Below are positions 3,692-15,078 of a stretch of 24,041 nucleotides of DNA, one piece after another; position 1 is the stretch's first letter; every line of letters starts with the position of its first letter. The stretch is from IMG/VR virus record IMGVR_UViG_3300042470_000189, positions 1 through 24,041 of that record, one strand, 5' to 3'. Position numbers and translations under genes: made by a program. The DNA comes from a virus. The notes beneath the pieces are model-generated. The model was not told where the DNA came from. It did not search any database and saw only the letters and a list, made by a program, of their open reading frames with translations.

Positions 3692-3716
3692 AACCCGCGC
3701 CATGCGGGTTTTTTTT
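3692..3716 (+). terminator. Intrinsic terminator closing the lysis/late operon
   Basis: A perfect 7-bp stem (3692-3698 with 3704-3710, AACCCGC/GCGGGTT) with a 5-base loop is followed by a T-run that ends at 3716 (eight T counting the stem end). It lies 26 bases after the endolysin stop and between two convergent operons, so it should end rightward late transcription. The stop codon of the leftward transporter gene lies inside the T-run. Confidence 0.9.
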
Positions 3717-4191
3717 ACTTGCTTGTCTTGGTGTTCAAAACAAAAGACCACAAGAAACCACCTAATACTTTTGCCAAAAATTGCATTGCAATGATATGAG
3801 GAATTAGTGAACCAAATGCAATCGTTGGGAATATTAAAGAATCAACTAAAGCTCCGGCAGCATTGCTTAAGTTCGCACGTATTTTCCAAGAACTATTAAG
3901 CCTTGCAAATACCAACCAATCAACTATTGATGCCGCAGTGAAAGCAATAGCTGAAGCTAATGCAATTTTCCCAGTTGCAGGATTTAAGAGTAATGTTAGC
4001 AATCCTGAAACAAGAATTAAACACCCCATTTGCCAGATTCTTAAGCGTACATGCAACCAATCTCTAAGAGTCAAATCAAGCCCTATGAACAAGAAAGCAT
4101 TAAGTGGGCTAATTGCCGGACCAAATGCTGCCACTAAAAGATTGGCAAGCGTCATGGCAACTGCGTAAATGCCTATAGCTATATAAAGCAT
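3715..4191 (-). CDS. VUT/YhhQ-family transporter, likely for a 7-deazaguanine precursor
   Basis: A 158-residue integral membrane protein with about five or six hydrophobic helices. It carries family signatures: GLDLTLRD (37-44), RANLSNAAGALVDS (105-118) followed by FPTIAFG, and KVLGGFLWS (141-149). E. coli YhhQ of this family imports preQ0 and preQ1 for queuosine synthesis; the phage copy is shorter than the roughly 220-residue YhhQ. It has a strong Shine-Dalgarno (AGGAG, five bases before ATG) and overlaps the upstream dpdA-like gene by 13 bases, so the pair is co-translated. GC in two hand-counted 60-base lines is 33-37 percent, against about 45 percent in the ssb line counted, suggesting separate acquisition. 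Substrate is inferred from the family and from its partner. It is the last gene of the leftward operon. Confidence 0.85.
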   Translation of the reverse strand: MLYIAIGIYAVAMTLANLLVAAFGPAISPLNAFLFIGLDLTLRDWLHVRLRIWQMGCLILVSGLLTLLLNPATGKIALASAIAFTAASIVDWLVFARLNSSWKIRANLSNAAGALVDSLIFPTIAFGSLIPHIIAMQFLAKVLGGFLWSFVLNTKTSK

Positions 4192-4862
4192 AAGTTCTCC
4201 TGTATAGGTCTAGTTTTCCATTTATTAGGTGGGTTTTTTGAATCAATACGCTTTGCCATGCAATAAGCGCACTCTTCTTTTTCTTTGTGATTCAAAGCAA
4301 CATTTGTGGAGTCCGCACTTGATAAAGGCCAACGTTCTAGACCTTGTCCTAACATCCGCATTCCATGCGTCCACGGTAGTCGACCGAATGTTTTTGCAAG
4401 CTGGTTGAATGTCTCATCCATTCTGCCCTGCCACTTTGCATCACCAACATTCCAGTATTTACCAGATGAGCCAAGACAAACTCGACCCCAATCGTCTACA
4501 AGCTCGCAAAGGTAATTTAACGACAATCCAAGATGCCAAACCGGTATACCTAAAGACTTTGGATATGGCCATGTTGCAACCATACTGCGCTGCTGTTCTT
4601 CTGGTCCATCAATAACATCAGGGACAACACCCCAATGTGGATGGCCTAGAATTGGGTCTAGCCATTTATAAAATCCTTCCGCATCAAACGGCAAACCCCT
4701 GGTCTTTGCACTGTATGCGCCATTGTCAAGCATTAAAGATTGCCCAATTGCTAAGCAAACCTTTAAGTCTCTTGGATCAGCGTAAGAAATGCAGAAATGC
4801 TCTCCAGCTAATGTCTCCAATACTGACTTTGGAGTAATTGGTGTGCCGTGATAATGAATCAT
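4179..4862 (-). CDS. dpdA: DpdA-like DNA guanine transglycosylase (TGT superfamily)
   Basis: A 227-residue protein that I identify as a phage DpdA, which exchanges guanine in DNA for a 7-deazaguanine base. Motifs parallel tRNA-guanine transglycosylase: DNGAYS (46-51) in the place of the TGT DSGGFQ; VVPDVIDG (79-86) at the nucleophile-aspartate position; WHLG (109-112); GSSG (131-134); and THGMRM...SADST (165-186), a His plus SxDST pattern seen in phage and archaeal relatives. It starts at an ATG overlapping the ssb stop as TAATG, with no good Shine-Dalgarno, so translation is probably coupled. Its partner downstream is a VUT transporter. No preQ0 synthesis genes (folE, queD, queE, queC) are in the window. 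Which D is nucleophile and which base is inserted are inference. Confidence 0.8.
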   Translation of the reverse strand: MIHYHGTPITPKSVLETLAGEHFCISYADPRDLKVCLAIGQSLMLDNGAYSAKTRGLPFDAEGFYKWLDPILGHPHWGVVPDVIDGPEEQQRSMVATWPYPKSLGIPVWHLGLSLNYLCELVDDWGRVCLGSSGKYWNVGDAKWQGRMDETFNQLAKTFGRLPWTHGMRMLGQGLERWPLSSADSTNVALNHKEKEECAYCMAKRIDSKNPPNKWKTRPIQENLCFI

Positions 4863-5257
4863 TAGAACGGTATGTCATCTTCAAAGTCGGTCATATCTCT
4901 ACCAGATGCTTTCGCATAAGCTTTAGCAGATGTAGAAGAATCTTCATCGCGCTTACCTAGCATTGTCAGTCTGCCGACAATAACTTCGGTGGTGTACTGG
5001 TCAATACCATCTTTAGACCACTTACGAGTTCTCAGAGAGCCCTCGATAAAGACTTGAGAGCCCTTCTTAAGGTATTTACCAGCCACCTCAGCGGCTGAGT
5101 TGAAAGCGGAGCAACGATGCCACTCGGTATGCTCTGTGCCATCTTTACCCTTTTGTGAGGTTGCTAGACTAAAGTTGCATATCGGTGTTTCTGTCTTCGC
5201 AAACGATGGGTCATTGCCAAGTCTGCCAAGCAAAAACACTTTATTGACACTACTCAT
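4862..5257 (-). CDS. ssb: Single-stranded DNA-binding protein
   Basis: A 131-residue SSB with one OB-fold (about 1-105): the family start SSVNKVFLLGRLGNDP, then TEWHRCSAFN and KGSQVFIEGSLRTRKW. A short variable linker leads to the acidic tail DFEDDIPF, the conserved tip that binds partner proteins. The start has a good Shine-Dalgarno (GGAG, five to six bases upstream). The gene overlaps the exonuclease gene upstream by 8 bases and the dpdA-like gene downstream by one. It would coat single-stranded DNA during phage replication and recombination, working with the neighbouring YqaJ nuclease and the annealing protein encoded on the other strand. Confidence 0.97.
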   Translation of the reverse strand: MSSVNKVFLLGRLGNDPSFAKTETPICNFSLATSQKGKDGTEHTEWHRCSAFNSAAEVAGKYLKKGSQVFIEGSLRTRKWSKDGIDQYTTEVIVGRLTMLGKRDEDSSTSAKAYAKASGRDMTDFEDDIPF

Positions 5258-5870
5258 GATTTCTCCGTTTATTGATAACGTCTAACTGCATATCAACCTC
5301 TGATAAAAACCGCTTTACTTCAGACTCAATTTTCTCGATCTCTTCTCTGGCTGGCTCAAACCGGATAACCAGAAGCATCATGTCCTCTGGCATACGATTA
5401 TCGAAACTAACGAAATCGCACCACTTGCGCTGCGTACAAGCTAGCTGTGCAAGCATCTGCGCTTGGTACTTACCTGGGATTTTCTGATCGCACCAATACT
5501 GAATGTGTTGCTGAGAGTTCGGGCATTTAATCTCGATAAGCCCATCATCCCCGATAAGGCCATCAGGAGATGCTCCAAACCACTTTATAGACGGGTGTTG
5601 AACGAAACCACATTCTTCAACGTCAACGCCTCTATAAGCCTCATAGACCGATCTAGCAACGGGTTCTAAGTCGATACCGCGCTGCATAGCAGAAGAAACA
5701 AAAGCATCTTCAGTAGGCGCACCTACAAGACGTTCGGTGATGACTTGGATTCTGTAGTTGGCTCTGCTTGCTGCTTCGCCACTTTTGATGGTAGCCAGTA
5801 CGTTAGACATCTGGCTTGCGGTGACATGGCCGAGTCTGGCCTGATACCAATCTTCCGTTCTTTGTTCCAT
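5250..5870 (-). CDS. YqaJ/lambda-exonuclease-family recombinase nuclease
   Basis: A 206-residue 5'-3' double-strand DNA exonuclease of the PD-(D/E)XK class. The N-terminal EDWYQARLGHVTASQ is the family start. Active-site residues appear in ASPDG (D103) and IEIKCP (E113, K115), and MQRGIDLEP (62-70) supplies the conserved Arg-Gly-Glu region. The C-terminus is a long charged helix. The start has a strong Shine-Dalgarno (GGAGG). It would resect DNA ends to give 3' tails for the DUF1071 annealing protein at 9751-10323, as lambda Exo does with Beta. It overlaps ssb by 8 bases. Absence of a Gam-type inhibitor in view is notable but the window is incomplete. Confidence 0.93.
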   Translation of the reverse strand: MEQRTEDWYQARLGHVTASQMSNVLATIKSGEAASRANYRIQVITERLVGAPTEDAFVSSAMQRGIDLEPVARSVYEAYRGVDVEECGFVQHPSIKWFGASPDGLIGDDGLIEIKCPNSQQHIQYWCDQKIPGKYQAQMLAQLACTQRKWCDFVSFDNRMPEDMMLLVIRFEPAREEIEKIESEVKRFLSEVDMQLDVINKRRNHE

Positions 5871-9705: not shown

Positions 9706-9711
9706 TAGTTG

Positions 9712-9720
9712 TGTTATAGT
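9712..9720 (+). promoter_or_regulatory. Candidate extended -10 promoter before the annealing-protein gene
   Basis: TGTTATAGT at 9712-9720 is an extended -10 element (TGn plus TATAGT, five of six matches). No good -35 is present, as is common for extended -10 promoters. It lies 30 bases before the ATG at 9751, in one of the few gaps in this operon. Confidence 0.5.
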
Positions 9721-9750
9721 AGAACTTCATCAAATACAGGAGTGAAGGAA

Positions 9751-10323
9751 ATGTACGAAAAACTTAGATCAATCAATGTCAAGCCAATGGTAGAGCACAA
9801 GGATGGCTTGTCATACTTAAGTTGGGCTTATGCCTGGGATACGTTTGCAAGCAATATCCCTGATGCAACTTACGAAATCATCAAGCACGAGAATGGCTTA
9901 CCAGTATTCGAGTCTGCTGCTGGCGCAATGGTTTACACGAAAGTCACTGCAAACGGCGTGACTCATGAGATGTGGTTACCTGTGATGGATCACAGAAACC
10001 GAGCGATGAAGTCTGAGCCCTACACCTACAAAACATCCAAAGGCGAGCAAACCGTTCAGGCTTACACGATGATGGACGTTAACAAGGCCGTGATGCGGTG
10101 CTTGGTCAAGAACCTTGCCATGTTTGGTTTAGGGATTGCGATCTACGCAGGAGAAGACCTTCCAGACGATGACGATCCAGTGATTGACAGGATCAAGTCA
10201 GCGCAGACAGAAGAAGAGCTCACAGAGGTGTTTAAGAGTGCTGTAAAAGAGTTTATGAGCAACAACGCAATGATGATTAAGTTGGCAGCAGCTAAAGAAG
10301 CTCGCAAGAAGGAACTCAAATGA
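9751..10323 (+). CDS. Single-strand annealing protein, DUF1071/Sak-like
   Basis: A 190-residue recombinase-type protein. The N-terminal MVEHKDGLSYLSWAYAWDTF is the DUF1071 signature, and the middle contains AMVYTKVTANGVTHEMWLPV, MMDVNKAVMRCLVKNLAMFG and GLGIAIYAGEDLP, all typical of this annealing-protein family. The C-terminal 45 residues are charged and helical. It would anneal resected strands together with the YqaJ exonuclease and SSB, which are encoded leftward in the other early operon. The ATG at 9751 has AAGGA right before it; an upstream in-frame start at 9709 would include the promoter-like element and is rejected. Confidence 0.88.
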   Translation: MYEKLRSINVKPMVEHKDGLSYLSWAYAWDTFASNIPDATYEIIKHENGLPVFESAAGAMVYTKVTANGVTHEMWLPVMDHRNRAMKSEPYTYKTSKGEQTVQAYTMMDVNKAVMRCLVKNLAMFGLGIAIYAGEDLPDDDDPVIDRIKSAQTEEELTEVFKSAVKEFMSNNAMMIKLAAAKEARKKELK

Positions 10324-13624: not shown

Positions 13625-13814
13625 CTGCGAGTCATGCAGGCATAGCGTTGGCTGTGGCGAGATGAGGCTAGGCAATGAGGTTATTCGCAAGATGCTGATT
13701 TGCAAGCTAACGAATGTATTCGCAGTGGACCCTTGTAGGAAATACGAGTATGAGCCAGGAACAGATTCAGAAACTACCAATCGACACACTAATACCGTAC
13801 GCCAACAACGCTAG
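13605..13814 (+). CDS. Small cysteine-rich protein, probable zinc binder
   Basis: A 69-residue protein with cysteines spaced CESC, then GCG, LICK and DPCRKYE, a pattern seen in small phage zinc-ribbon-like proteins. The N-terminal 50 residues look folded; the last 20 are polar and Thr/Arg rich and lie in the 65-base overlap with the ParB-methyltransferase gene, so that tail may be tolerated read-through. The ribosome-binding site AAGGCGAG precedes the ATG. Function is unknown. Confidence 0.55.
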   Translation: MSTFQPSCESCRHSVGCGEMRLGNEVIRKMLICKLTNVFAVDPCRKYEYEPGTDSETTNRHTNTVRQQR

Positions 13815-15078
13815 AGTGCATTCGGACAAGCAGATATTGCAAATTGCATCAAGTATTAAGGAGTTTGGCTTTACTAACCCTGTACTGATTGACAAAGACA
13901 ACGGCATCATTGCAGGCCACGGAAGGGTTGAGGCTGCAAGAAAGCTAGGGCATAAAGAGGTTCCGGTTATCAGACTTGAGCACCTGAGCGAAGCTCAGAA
14001 GAAGGCTTACATCCTTGCAGACAACAAGATAGCGATGAACTCGACCTGGGACGATCAGCTACTTGCGTTAGAGCTGCAAACGATAGGCGATCTAGGTATC
14101 AACTTAGACTTCACTGGCTTTGACGAGTCAGAAATTTCTGAGCTTACTCCACAAGAAATAACAGAAGGTCTAACAGATGAGGACGCCGTACCAGAACCAC
14201 CTCCTGAGCCTATTACCAAACCTGGGGATATTTGGATACTAGGAAATCATAGGCTTATGTGCGGTGATTGCAGGGATTTCGATGATGTTCAAAAAGTGTT
14301 AAATGGAGCAAAAATCAATCTTGTGATTACTTCACCGCCTTACGCATCTCAAAGAACTTATGACGAAAAATCTAAGTTCAAACCTATTGCTCCAGATGAG
14401 TATGTAGATTGGTATAGAGATGTTGCATCTAACATTTATGCAAATCTTGATGAAAATGGATCTTATTTCTGCAACATAAAGCCAAATGCAGAGGGGTTAT
14501 CTCGTGAACTTTATGTATTTGATCTTGTTTTAGCTCATGTGAGAGATTGGGGCTGGAATTATGCAGATGAATTTTGTTGGGAAAGAAATGGAATCCCGCA
14601 ACAAGTAATTCGTAGATTCAAAAATCAATTTGAGCCTATTTATCATTTCACTAAAGGAGAATGGAAGTTTAGGCCAGACGAAGTAAAACATCAGTCAAAG
14701 TCGGTCCCAAAAGCTAGAGGGAAAGGATCTGGAAATACAAATGCTGCTCTTAGGCAAGGATTTGCATCTGCGGTTGATGGTAACGAAATTGTTGAGGGTA
14801 TGGCTTATCCAGGGAACAGATTACCAACGTTTCAATCAGAAGCTTTAGGACATCCAGCCGCTTATCCAGTTGGACTTCCAGAGTTTTTTATAAAGGCATA
14901 CACGGATATTAAAGATGTTGTATTCGATCCTTTTATGGGGAGTGGGTCAACCATAATTGCAGCAGAAAAGAATGGAAGGAAATCAATAGGAACGGAAATA
15001 AGTCCGCTTTACATTGATCTTATTGTTAAACGATGGGAAGAATTTACAGGAAAGAAAGCAGTGCTAGAGACTAACTAA
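13750..15078 (+). CDS. ParB-domain fused beta-class DNA methyltransferase
   Basis: A 442-residue two-domain protein. Residues about 8-135 are a ParB/sulfiredoxin-type domain (LIPYANNARVHSDKQI, NGIIAGHGRVEAARKLG). A Pro-rich linker (147-157) leads to an N4/N6-type methyltransferase with TSPPY (194-198) as motif IV and DPFMGSG (393-399) as the AdoMet-binding motif; motif IV coming first marks the beta class. It would methylate adenine N6 or cytosine N4 in a short target, most likely to shield phage DNA from host restriction. No restriction enzyme gene is adjacent. ATG 13750 has TAGGA nine bases upstream. GC falls from about 50 percent in the ParB part to 30-40 percent in the methyltransferase part, by hand count of single lines. 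Confidence 0.9.
   Translation: MSQEQIQKLPIDTLIPYANNARVHSDKQILQIASSIKEFGFTNPVLIDKDNGIIAGHGRVEAARKLGHKEVPVIRLEHLSEAQKKAYILADNKIAMNSTWDDQLLALELQTIGDLGINLDFTGFDESEISELTPQEITEGLTDEDAVPEPPPEPITKPGDIWILGNHRLMCGDCRDFDDVQKVLNGAKINLVITSPPYASQRTYDEKSKFKPIAPDEYVDWYRDVASNIYANLDENGSYFCNIKPNAEGLSRELYVFDLVLAHVRDWGWNYADEFCWERNGIPQQVIRRFKNQFEPIYHFTKGEWKFRPDEVKHQSKSVPKARGKGSGNTNAALRQGFASAVDGNEIVEGMAYPGNRLPTFQSEALGHPAAYPVGLPEFFIKAYTDIKDVVFDPFMGSGSTIIAAEKNGRKSIGTEISPLYIDLIVKRWEEFTGKKAVLETN

Follow-up and report, generated by a model that had tools for sequence, protein, structure and literature searches.

Organization of the locus

The window (the whole stretch of DNA analysed here) is a viral fragment of 24,041 bases, which also encodes terminase, portal, major head protein, head-tail adaptor, tail-spike-like and endolysin genes. 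Two genes on its minus strand are the subject of this report. The first encodes a DpdA-like base-exchange enzyme of the TGT superfamily (4179-4862, 227 aa) and the second a compact membrane transporter of the Vut_1 family (PF02592, QPTR/YhhQ superfamily; 3715-4191, 158 aa), hereafter VUT. According to the coordinates, the stop region of the DpdA-like gene and the start of the VUT gene overlap by 13 nt (4179-4191, minus strand), and translational coupling is probable. In most relatives, too, the genes either overlap slightly or are separated by a short gap, on a scale of a few to a few tens of nucleotides. An SSB gene (4862-5257, minus strand; Pfam SSB, E-value 1.1e-28) lies directly upstream of the DpdA-like gene, with one base common to both at the junction (TAATG). 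The pair stands at the 3' end of a run of minus-strand genes, among them those for a primosomal-type protein, a YqaJ nuclease and SSB. The preliminary description of this DNA had reported a TGT-superfamily gene with the motifs DNGAYS, VVPDVIDG and SADST that overlaps a VUT gene, with both at the end of a replication/recombination operon, and both statements were borne out. A conserved SSB-DpdA-VUT operon was also considered and was ruled out, as SSB was directly upstream of DpdA in none of the relatives showing both.

A terminator-like hairpin (3692-3710, plus strand; pattern match only) is located between the VUT gene and the convergent endolysin gene and consists of AACCCGCGCCATGCGGGTT followed by TTTTTTACTT, with the T-run on the plus strand. 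Since it was scored on this strand, it may belong to the endolysin gene rather than to VUT.

Two other features of the window were recorded. A ParB-N domain fused to an N6/N4 DNA methylase (13714-15078, plus strand; PF01555, E-value 4.7e-41) is a second possible DNA-modification gene of the same phage. A Sak single-strand annealing protein (9709-10323, plus strand) and the YqaJ nuclease (5250-5870, minus strand) are encoded on opposite strands, so that Sak, YqaJ and SSB form a divided recombination module on one fragment.

Sequence analysis of the DpdA-like enzyme

The 227-aa ORF matched PHROG 887 ('queuine tRNA-ribosyltransferase') with an E-value of 1.4e-41. It shared 40% identity over 197 residues, and the same motifs, with the DpdA of Pantoea phage MED16, and 29% identity (E-value 4e-27) with the DpdA (gp032) of Salmonella phage 7-11. 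By homology it therefore belongs with the phage singleton DpdA class (PHROG 887; MED16, 7-11). No match to the enzyme was found in Pfam, NCBIfam or PDB sequences. The Pfam model of bacterial TGT (PF01702) was matched by none of the 34 family members, and the Pfam DpdA model (PF23859) by neither the enzyme nor its 34-member family. When the family alignment was compared using hhalign, there was no alignment with bacterial TGTs or with PF23859-type DpdA, and the alignment with PHROG 15826 covered 45 columns only, around DNG-FS and PDV (probability 75%). PDB sequence searches with the single sequence and with a profile returned no TGT, and their RNase H matches were rejected as chance. Because a Pfam or PDB sequence match is lacking, the enzyme was assigned to the superfamily from PHROGs, from its homology to published DpdA proteins and from its fold.

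The motifs DNGAYS, VVPDVIDG and SADST were all found in the ORF. Invariant residues in the 34-member alignment (down to 32% identity) are D46-N47-G48-A49, P81-D82, H110 and G131, together with H166-G167, R169-M170-L171 and S182-A183-D184-S185. They fall in a collinear, mostly invariant motif series (DNGA, PD-I-G, HLG, GSSG, HG-RML and SADS). The active-site motifs of TGT occur in the order DSGGFQ, DE, VQGG, GGLxVGE, RYLMGVG and DMFDCV, and they were visible in the two bacterial TGT sequences compared. Judged by sequence, the enzyme motifs follow the same order. Asp46 and Asp184 were thus assigned by motif order as the putative catalytic pair and Asp82 as a putative base-pocket residue; the correspondence to TGT residues was taken from motif order and the strand ends of the model, not from residue-level superposition. 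The conserved zinc site of bacterial TGT (three Cys, one His) is absent from the enzyme, which has only C195 and C198 near the C-terminus, and these are not kept among relatives.

Predicted structure of the enzyme

The AlphaFold2 model of the enzyme had a pLDDT of 85 and a pTM of 0.83. Foldseek alone returned generic barrels only. When the Foldseek chains were aligned using VIA-align, all 50 rows listed were Cap10 or TGT (Z 13.0-13.9; rmsd 3.1-4.0 A over 197-214 residues). Rank 1 was Cap10 (9ntn, Z 13.9), and TGTs, including archaeal 1iq8, had Z of 13.0-13.4; these ranks were considered tied because Z differs by under 1. The modelled fold is a beta/alpha barrel that is closer to solved TGTs than to unrelated barrels. 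The superfamily named in the preliminary description thus agreed with the AlphaFold comparison, in which Cap10 and TGTs were the best matches. We concluded that the enzyme has the TGT fold and is DpdA-like, but falls outside both the DpdA and the TGT family of Pfam.

The VUT transporter

The transporter matched Pfam PF02592 (E-value 1e-12; 49.1 bits, cutoff 27.2), which places it in Vut_1/QPTR. It missed the cutoffs of NCBIfam TIGR00697 (27.2 against 50.95 bits) and PRK11212 (26.1 against 252). In profile searches, as proposed in the preliminary description, VUT fell in its named family, and the enzyme matched PHROG 887 and neither the TGT nor the DpdA model of Pfam.

The AlphaFold2 model of VUT (pLDDT 90) was all-helical, and Foldseek gave no significant match for it. 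Its best structural neighbours were ECF S-components (RibU, CbiM-type, BioY and ThiT; Z 9-11), a match that is only suggestive because helical proteins reach Z of about 13 by common arrangement. As a side observation, this likeness of the models hints at a fold common to QPTR and S-components. The substrates of QPTR proteins vary by member, with preQ0/preQ1 in E. coli and queuine in Chlamydia (PMC11130926). Because of this variation and the missed NCBIfam cutoffs, the substrate of VUT has to be deduced from its partner enzyme. On this basis, VUT probably imports a 7-deazaguanine base, for example preQ0 or preQ1.

Selection and linkage of the two genes

Both genes are under purifying selection among close relatives, with dN/dS of about 0.05-0.07 for the enzyme (dN 0.07-0.09, dS 1.0-1.9) and about 0.07-0.13 for the transporter, taken only where dS was unsaturated. 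Both genes are thus maintained. Scanning IMG/VR with the enzyme found at least 588 relatives, of which the closest 80 were kept, and a further 63 loci came from a scan with the transporter. Both genes were detected by tblastn in 122 of the loci compared (143 viral loci and the window's own).

Of the two scans, that with the transporter tests linkage more fairly, because the enzyme played no part in the selection. It yielded 26 non-redundant clusters (90% identity), and a DpdA-like gene adjoins VUT in all 26. In 23 of them a window-type enzyme (31-89% identity to the window enzyme) is within 260 nt, with a median gap of 12; the order is DpdA-then-VUT in 19 and reversed in four. The transporter was also present in 13 phage records. 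Six of these were read directly (PEAT2, Opt-719, RCIP0319, LHE71, AB3P2 and Lg3), and a PHROG 887-type enzyme adjoins VUT in each. For ECO111 5-P and Flyfo Tbat1_6 the adjacency was deduced from coordinates, and the other records are second entries or apparent close relatives of these eight, judged by equal size and match. VUT was undetected in about one fifth of the closest DpdA relatives, including records of 32 and 35 kb, by tblastn over the loci and a second search run without a positive control. The pair is not due to chance, as it has at least 588 relatives, the adjacency is conserved and each gene is under purifying selection. A linkage of this strength implies that the two genes function together.

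Exchange of partners

One VUT type was found with three DpdA-like families, namely the window type, PF23859/PHROG 1279 and PHROG 15826. At locus L089 VUT is beside a DpdA of PF23859 (E-value 1.9e-36)/PHROG 1279, and at loci L142 and L144 it is beside a PHROG 15826 protein. The reverse exchange was seen in contigs of Rhizobium subbaraonis and Devosia, where a window-type enzyme (51% and 41% identity to the window enzyme, respectively) overlaps or abuts a divergent Vut_1. In Ideonella (63% identity), a window-type transporter adjoins the enzyme. The pairing persists though either partner is replaced by its own kind, which argues strongly for a metabolite common to both.

The PHROG 15826 proteins (L142, 3333-3923; L144, 2716-3426), whose function is unannotated, carry DNG-F, PDV-G and a late Asp in DpdA order, and from these motifs PHROG 15826 is probably an unannotated DpdA-like family. 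Two loci with VUT-less DpdA-like genes had other neighbours. A PAPS-reductase/PP-loop gene (L039, 4938-5786; PF01507, E-value 2e-8) is located shortly downstream in one, and ORFs judged by eye from the sequence to be apparent cytosine-type DNA methylases are located upstream in both (L039, 2730-3551; L044, 2751-3575).

Source of the base

No QueC was found in the window's record. Since this record is a 24-kb fragment, the search for precursor genes was widened to 20 larger relatives (28-39 kb, perhaps incomplete), in which QueC, QueD and FolE were all absent. The earlier claim that the phage has no pathway of its own agrees with these searches.

A window-type enzyme was present in 20 bacterial genomes, 17 without a neighbouring VUT and three with the pair. 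Strong QueC was found in all 17 of the former. Of the pair-bearing genomes, those of Rhizobium and Devosia (L146 and L149) had no true QueC (short PP-loop matches only) and no QueD, and had a strong TGT and a second Vut_1 locus; they are therefore predicted to be salvagers. The third, Ideonella, is the closest to the window. It has QueC, by which it makes its own preQ0, and the Vut_1 of the pair is its only one. The difference in QueC between pair and DpdA-only genomes (Fisher p 0.016; three pair cases, kinship ignored, MAGs included) is a lead, not proof. Among 399 genomes of the order to which Ideonella belongs, a profile search recovered Ideonella alone, so the host comparison stays small.

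Proposed function of the pair

The fold, the motifs, the selection on both genes, their conserved linkage and the lack of biosynthesis genes in relatives were directly observed. In our best reading, which we regard as fairly probable, the two genes are a salvage-type 7-deazaguanine module. As the same pair is found in many different viruses, the virus probably obtains the modified base by scavenging rather than by its own synthesis. VUT would import a 7-deazaguanine base (preQ0 or preQ1) and raise its level in the infected cell. The TGT-fold enzyme would exchange guanine in phage DNA for the imported base by the TGT mechanism, with a covalent deoxyribosyl intermediate on Asp184 and with Asp46 as acid/base. 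That DNA, rather than tRNA or protein, is the substrate we infer, and the same holds for the identity of the base, for the direction in which VUT transports it and for protection from restriction, if there is any.

This reading is favoured by the genomes of MED16 (DpdA, gp38; no preQ0 genes reported) and Salmonella phage 7-11 (no biosynthesis genes), which carry dADG without a preQ0 pathway, at 0.13% of G (PMC8306585) and 0.02% of G (PMC6884629), respectively. Against it, these nearest published phages have a trace and not broadly protective modification. CAjan, which has its own pathway, reaches 32%. Most G-site enzymes tried still cut MED16 DNA (PMC8306585). Phages with DpdA and no biosynthesis genes are the largest group in PMC6884629, and the members measured had trace 7-deazaguanine or none; Orion had no dADG (PMC6884629, PMC8306585). 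The trace levels of lone-DpdA phages could be due either to a supply limit, curable by a transporter, or to few sites or another substrate. Given these levels and the cutting of MED16 DNA, protection from restriction, as claimed in the preliminary description, is unsupported by the evidence on this class. The lack of sequence-level Pfam TGT/DpdA matches and of an hhalign TGT alignment, the preQ0 synthesis of Ideonella, the VUT-less fifth of the closest DpdA relatives and the missed equivalog cutoffs also count against the module.

Other functions were weighed. The pair may serve host tRNA, boosting queuosine-type modification and helping translation during infection. In fold, tRNA-guanine transglycosylases match the enzyme as well as anything does, and tRNA is the presumed target in phages that have preQ0 genes and lack DpdA (PMC6884629). 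We consider this unlikely, as the enzyme is 227 aa long and does not have the cysteines of the bacterial TGT zinc site, its nearest characterised homologues sit in phages with modified DNA, and the hosts tested already possess a strong TGT. It is slightly less probable still that the enzyme uses a host-made precursor and that VUT acts as an exporter, or takes up a different compound, its linkage to the enzyme having some other cause. The relatives without VUT, even at 32 and 35 kb, would fit such an arrangement, as would the member-to-member variation of Vut_1 substrates (PMC11130926) and the NCBIfam scores below equivalog cutoffs, but the persistence of the pairing when both partners swap with their own kind points to a shared metabolite.

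A protein target seems very improbable. Here the enzyme would bind or transfer 7-deazaguanine on a protein in the manner of Cap10, for instance to counter an immunity that is based on 7-deazaguanine; Cap10 ranks first among the structural neighbours, and deazaguanylation is a real protein modification (PMC11996544). Yet the lead of Cap10 over TGT is a tie, a QueC-like Cap9 partner is absent from the record and the 20 relatives, and the residues expected for base exchange are kept.

If the salvage module is taken further, phages may possess a widespread mix-and-match module, in which several DpdA-like families (including PHROG 15826) combine with several VUT types. This would lift the precursor limit to which the near-absence of modification in lone-DpdA phages would be due, and the phages would depend on 7-deazaguanines around the host; we put this forward tentatively, at somewhat less than even chances. 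If true, the linkage would explain the source of the base for DpdA phages without biosynthesis genes. Pair-bearing phages would be predicted to carry much more modified base, dependent on external precursor, and their restriction phenotype would be conditional on the medium and could be missed by routine tests. The DpdA/VUT linkage also suggests a function for PHROG 15826.

Comparison with known systems

The enzyme of MED16 is homologous to that of the window, with no VUT beside it. Phage 7-11 and the window share a homologous DpdA and the lack of biosynthesis genes; the difference is that no VUT was detected in the first 50 kb of the 90-kb genome of 7-11. Cap10 of type IV CBASS (9ntn) is a TGT-family protein and the best structural match to the window enzyme, but it binds a deazaguanylated protein N-terminus and has the QueC-like partner Cap9 (PMC11996544). 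Pantoea phage Vid5 has, as the window does, a VUT-family protein; described as a preQ0/preQ1 transporter, it was proposed as a preQ0 importer for DNA modification. Vid5 differs in that the larger part of the biosynthesis cluster is also present, and bacterial proteins were reported as the closest relatives of its VUT (PMC6266253). YhhQ homologues have been seen in DpdA-only phages and import was considered, with no correlation of YhhQ with any group (PMC6884629).

In Pectobacterium phage PEAT2, the same two families are adjacent in the reverse order (VUT first) and already publicly annotated. We found no description of its VUT and queuine TGT as a system, nor of a DpdA and VUT pair as a module, in the literature searched, which excluded most subscription papers. 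From the preliminary interpretation, the TGT-fold enzyme, the VUT family, the missing pathway and the linkage stand, and the import idea is not new: the pair is annotated in PEAT2, and import by phage VUT was proposed earlier (PMC6266253, PMC6884629). What is new is how tight the DpdA/VUT pairing is, with the partners swapping.
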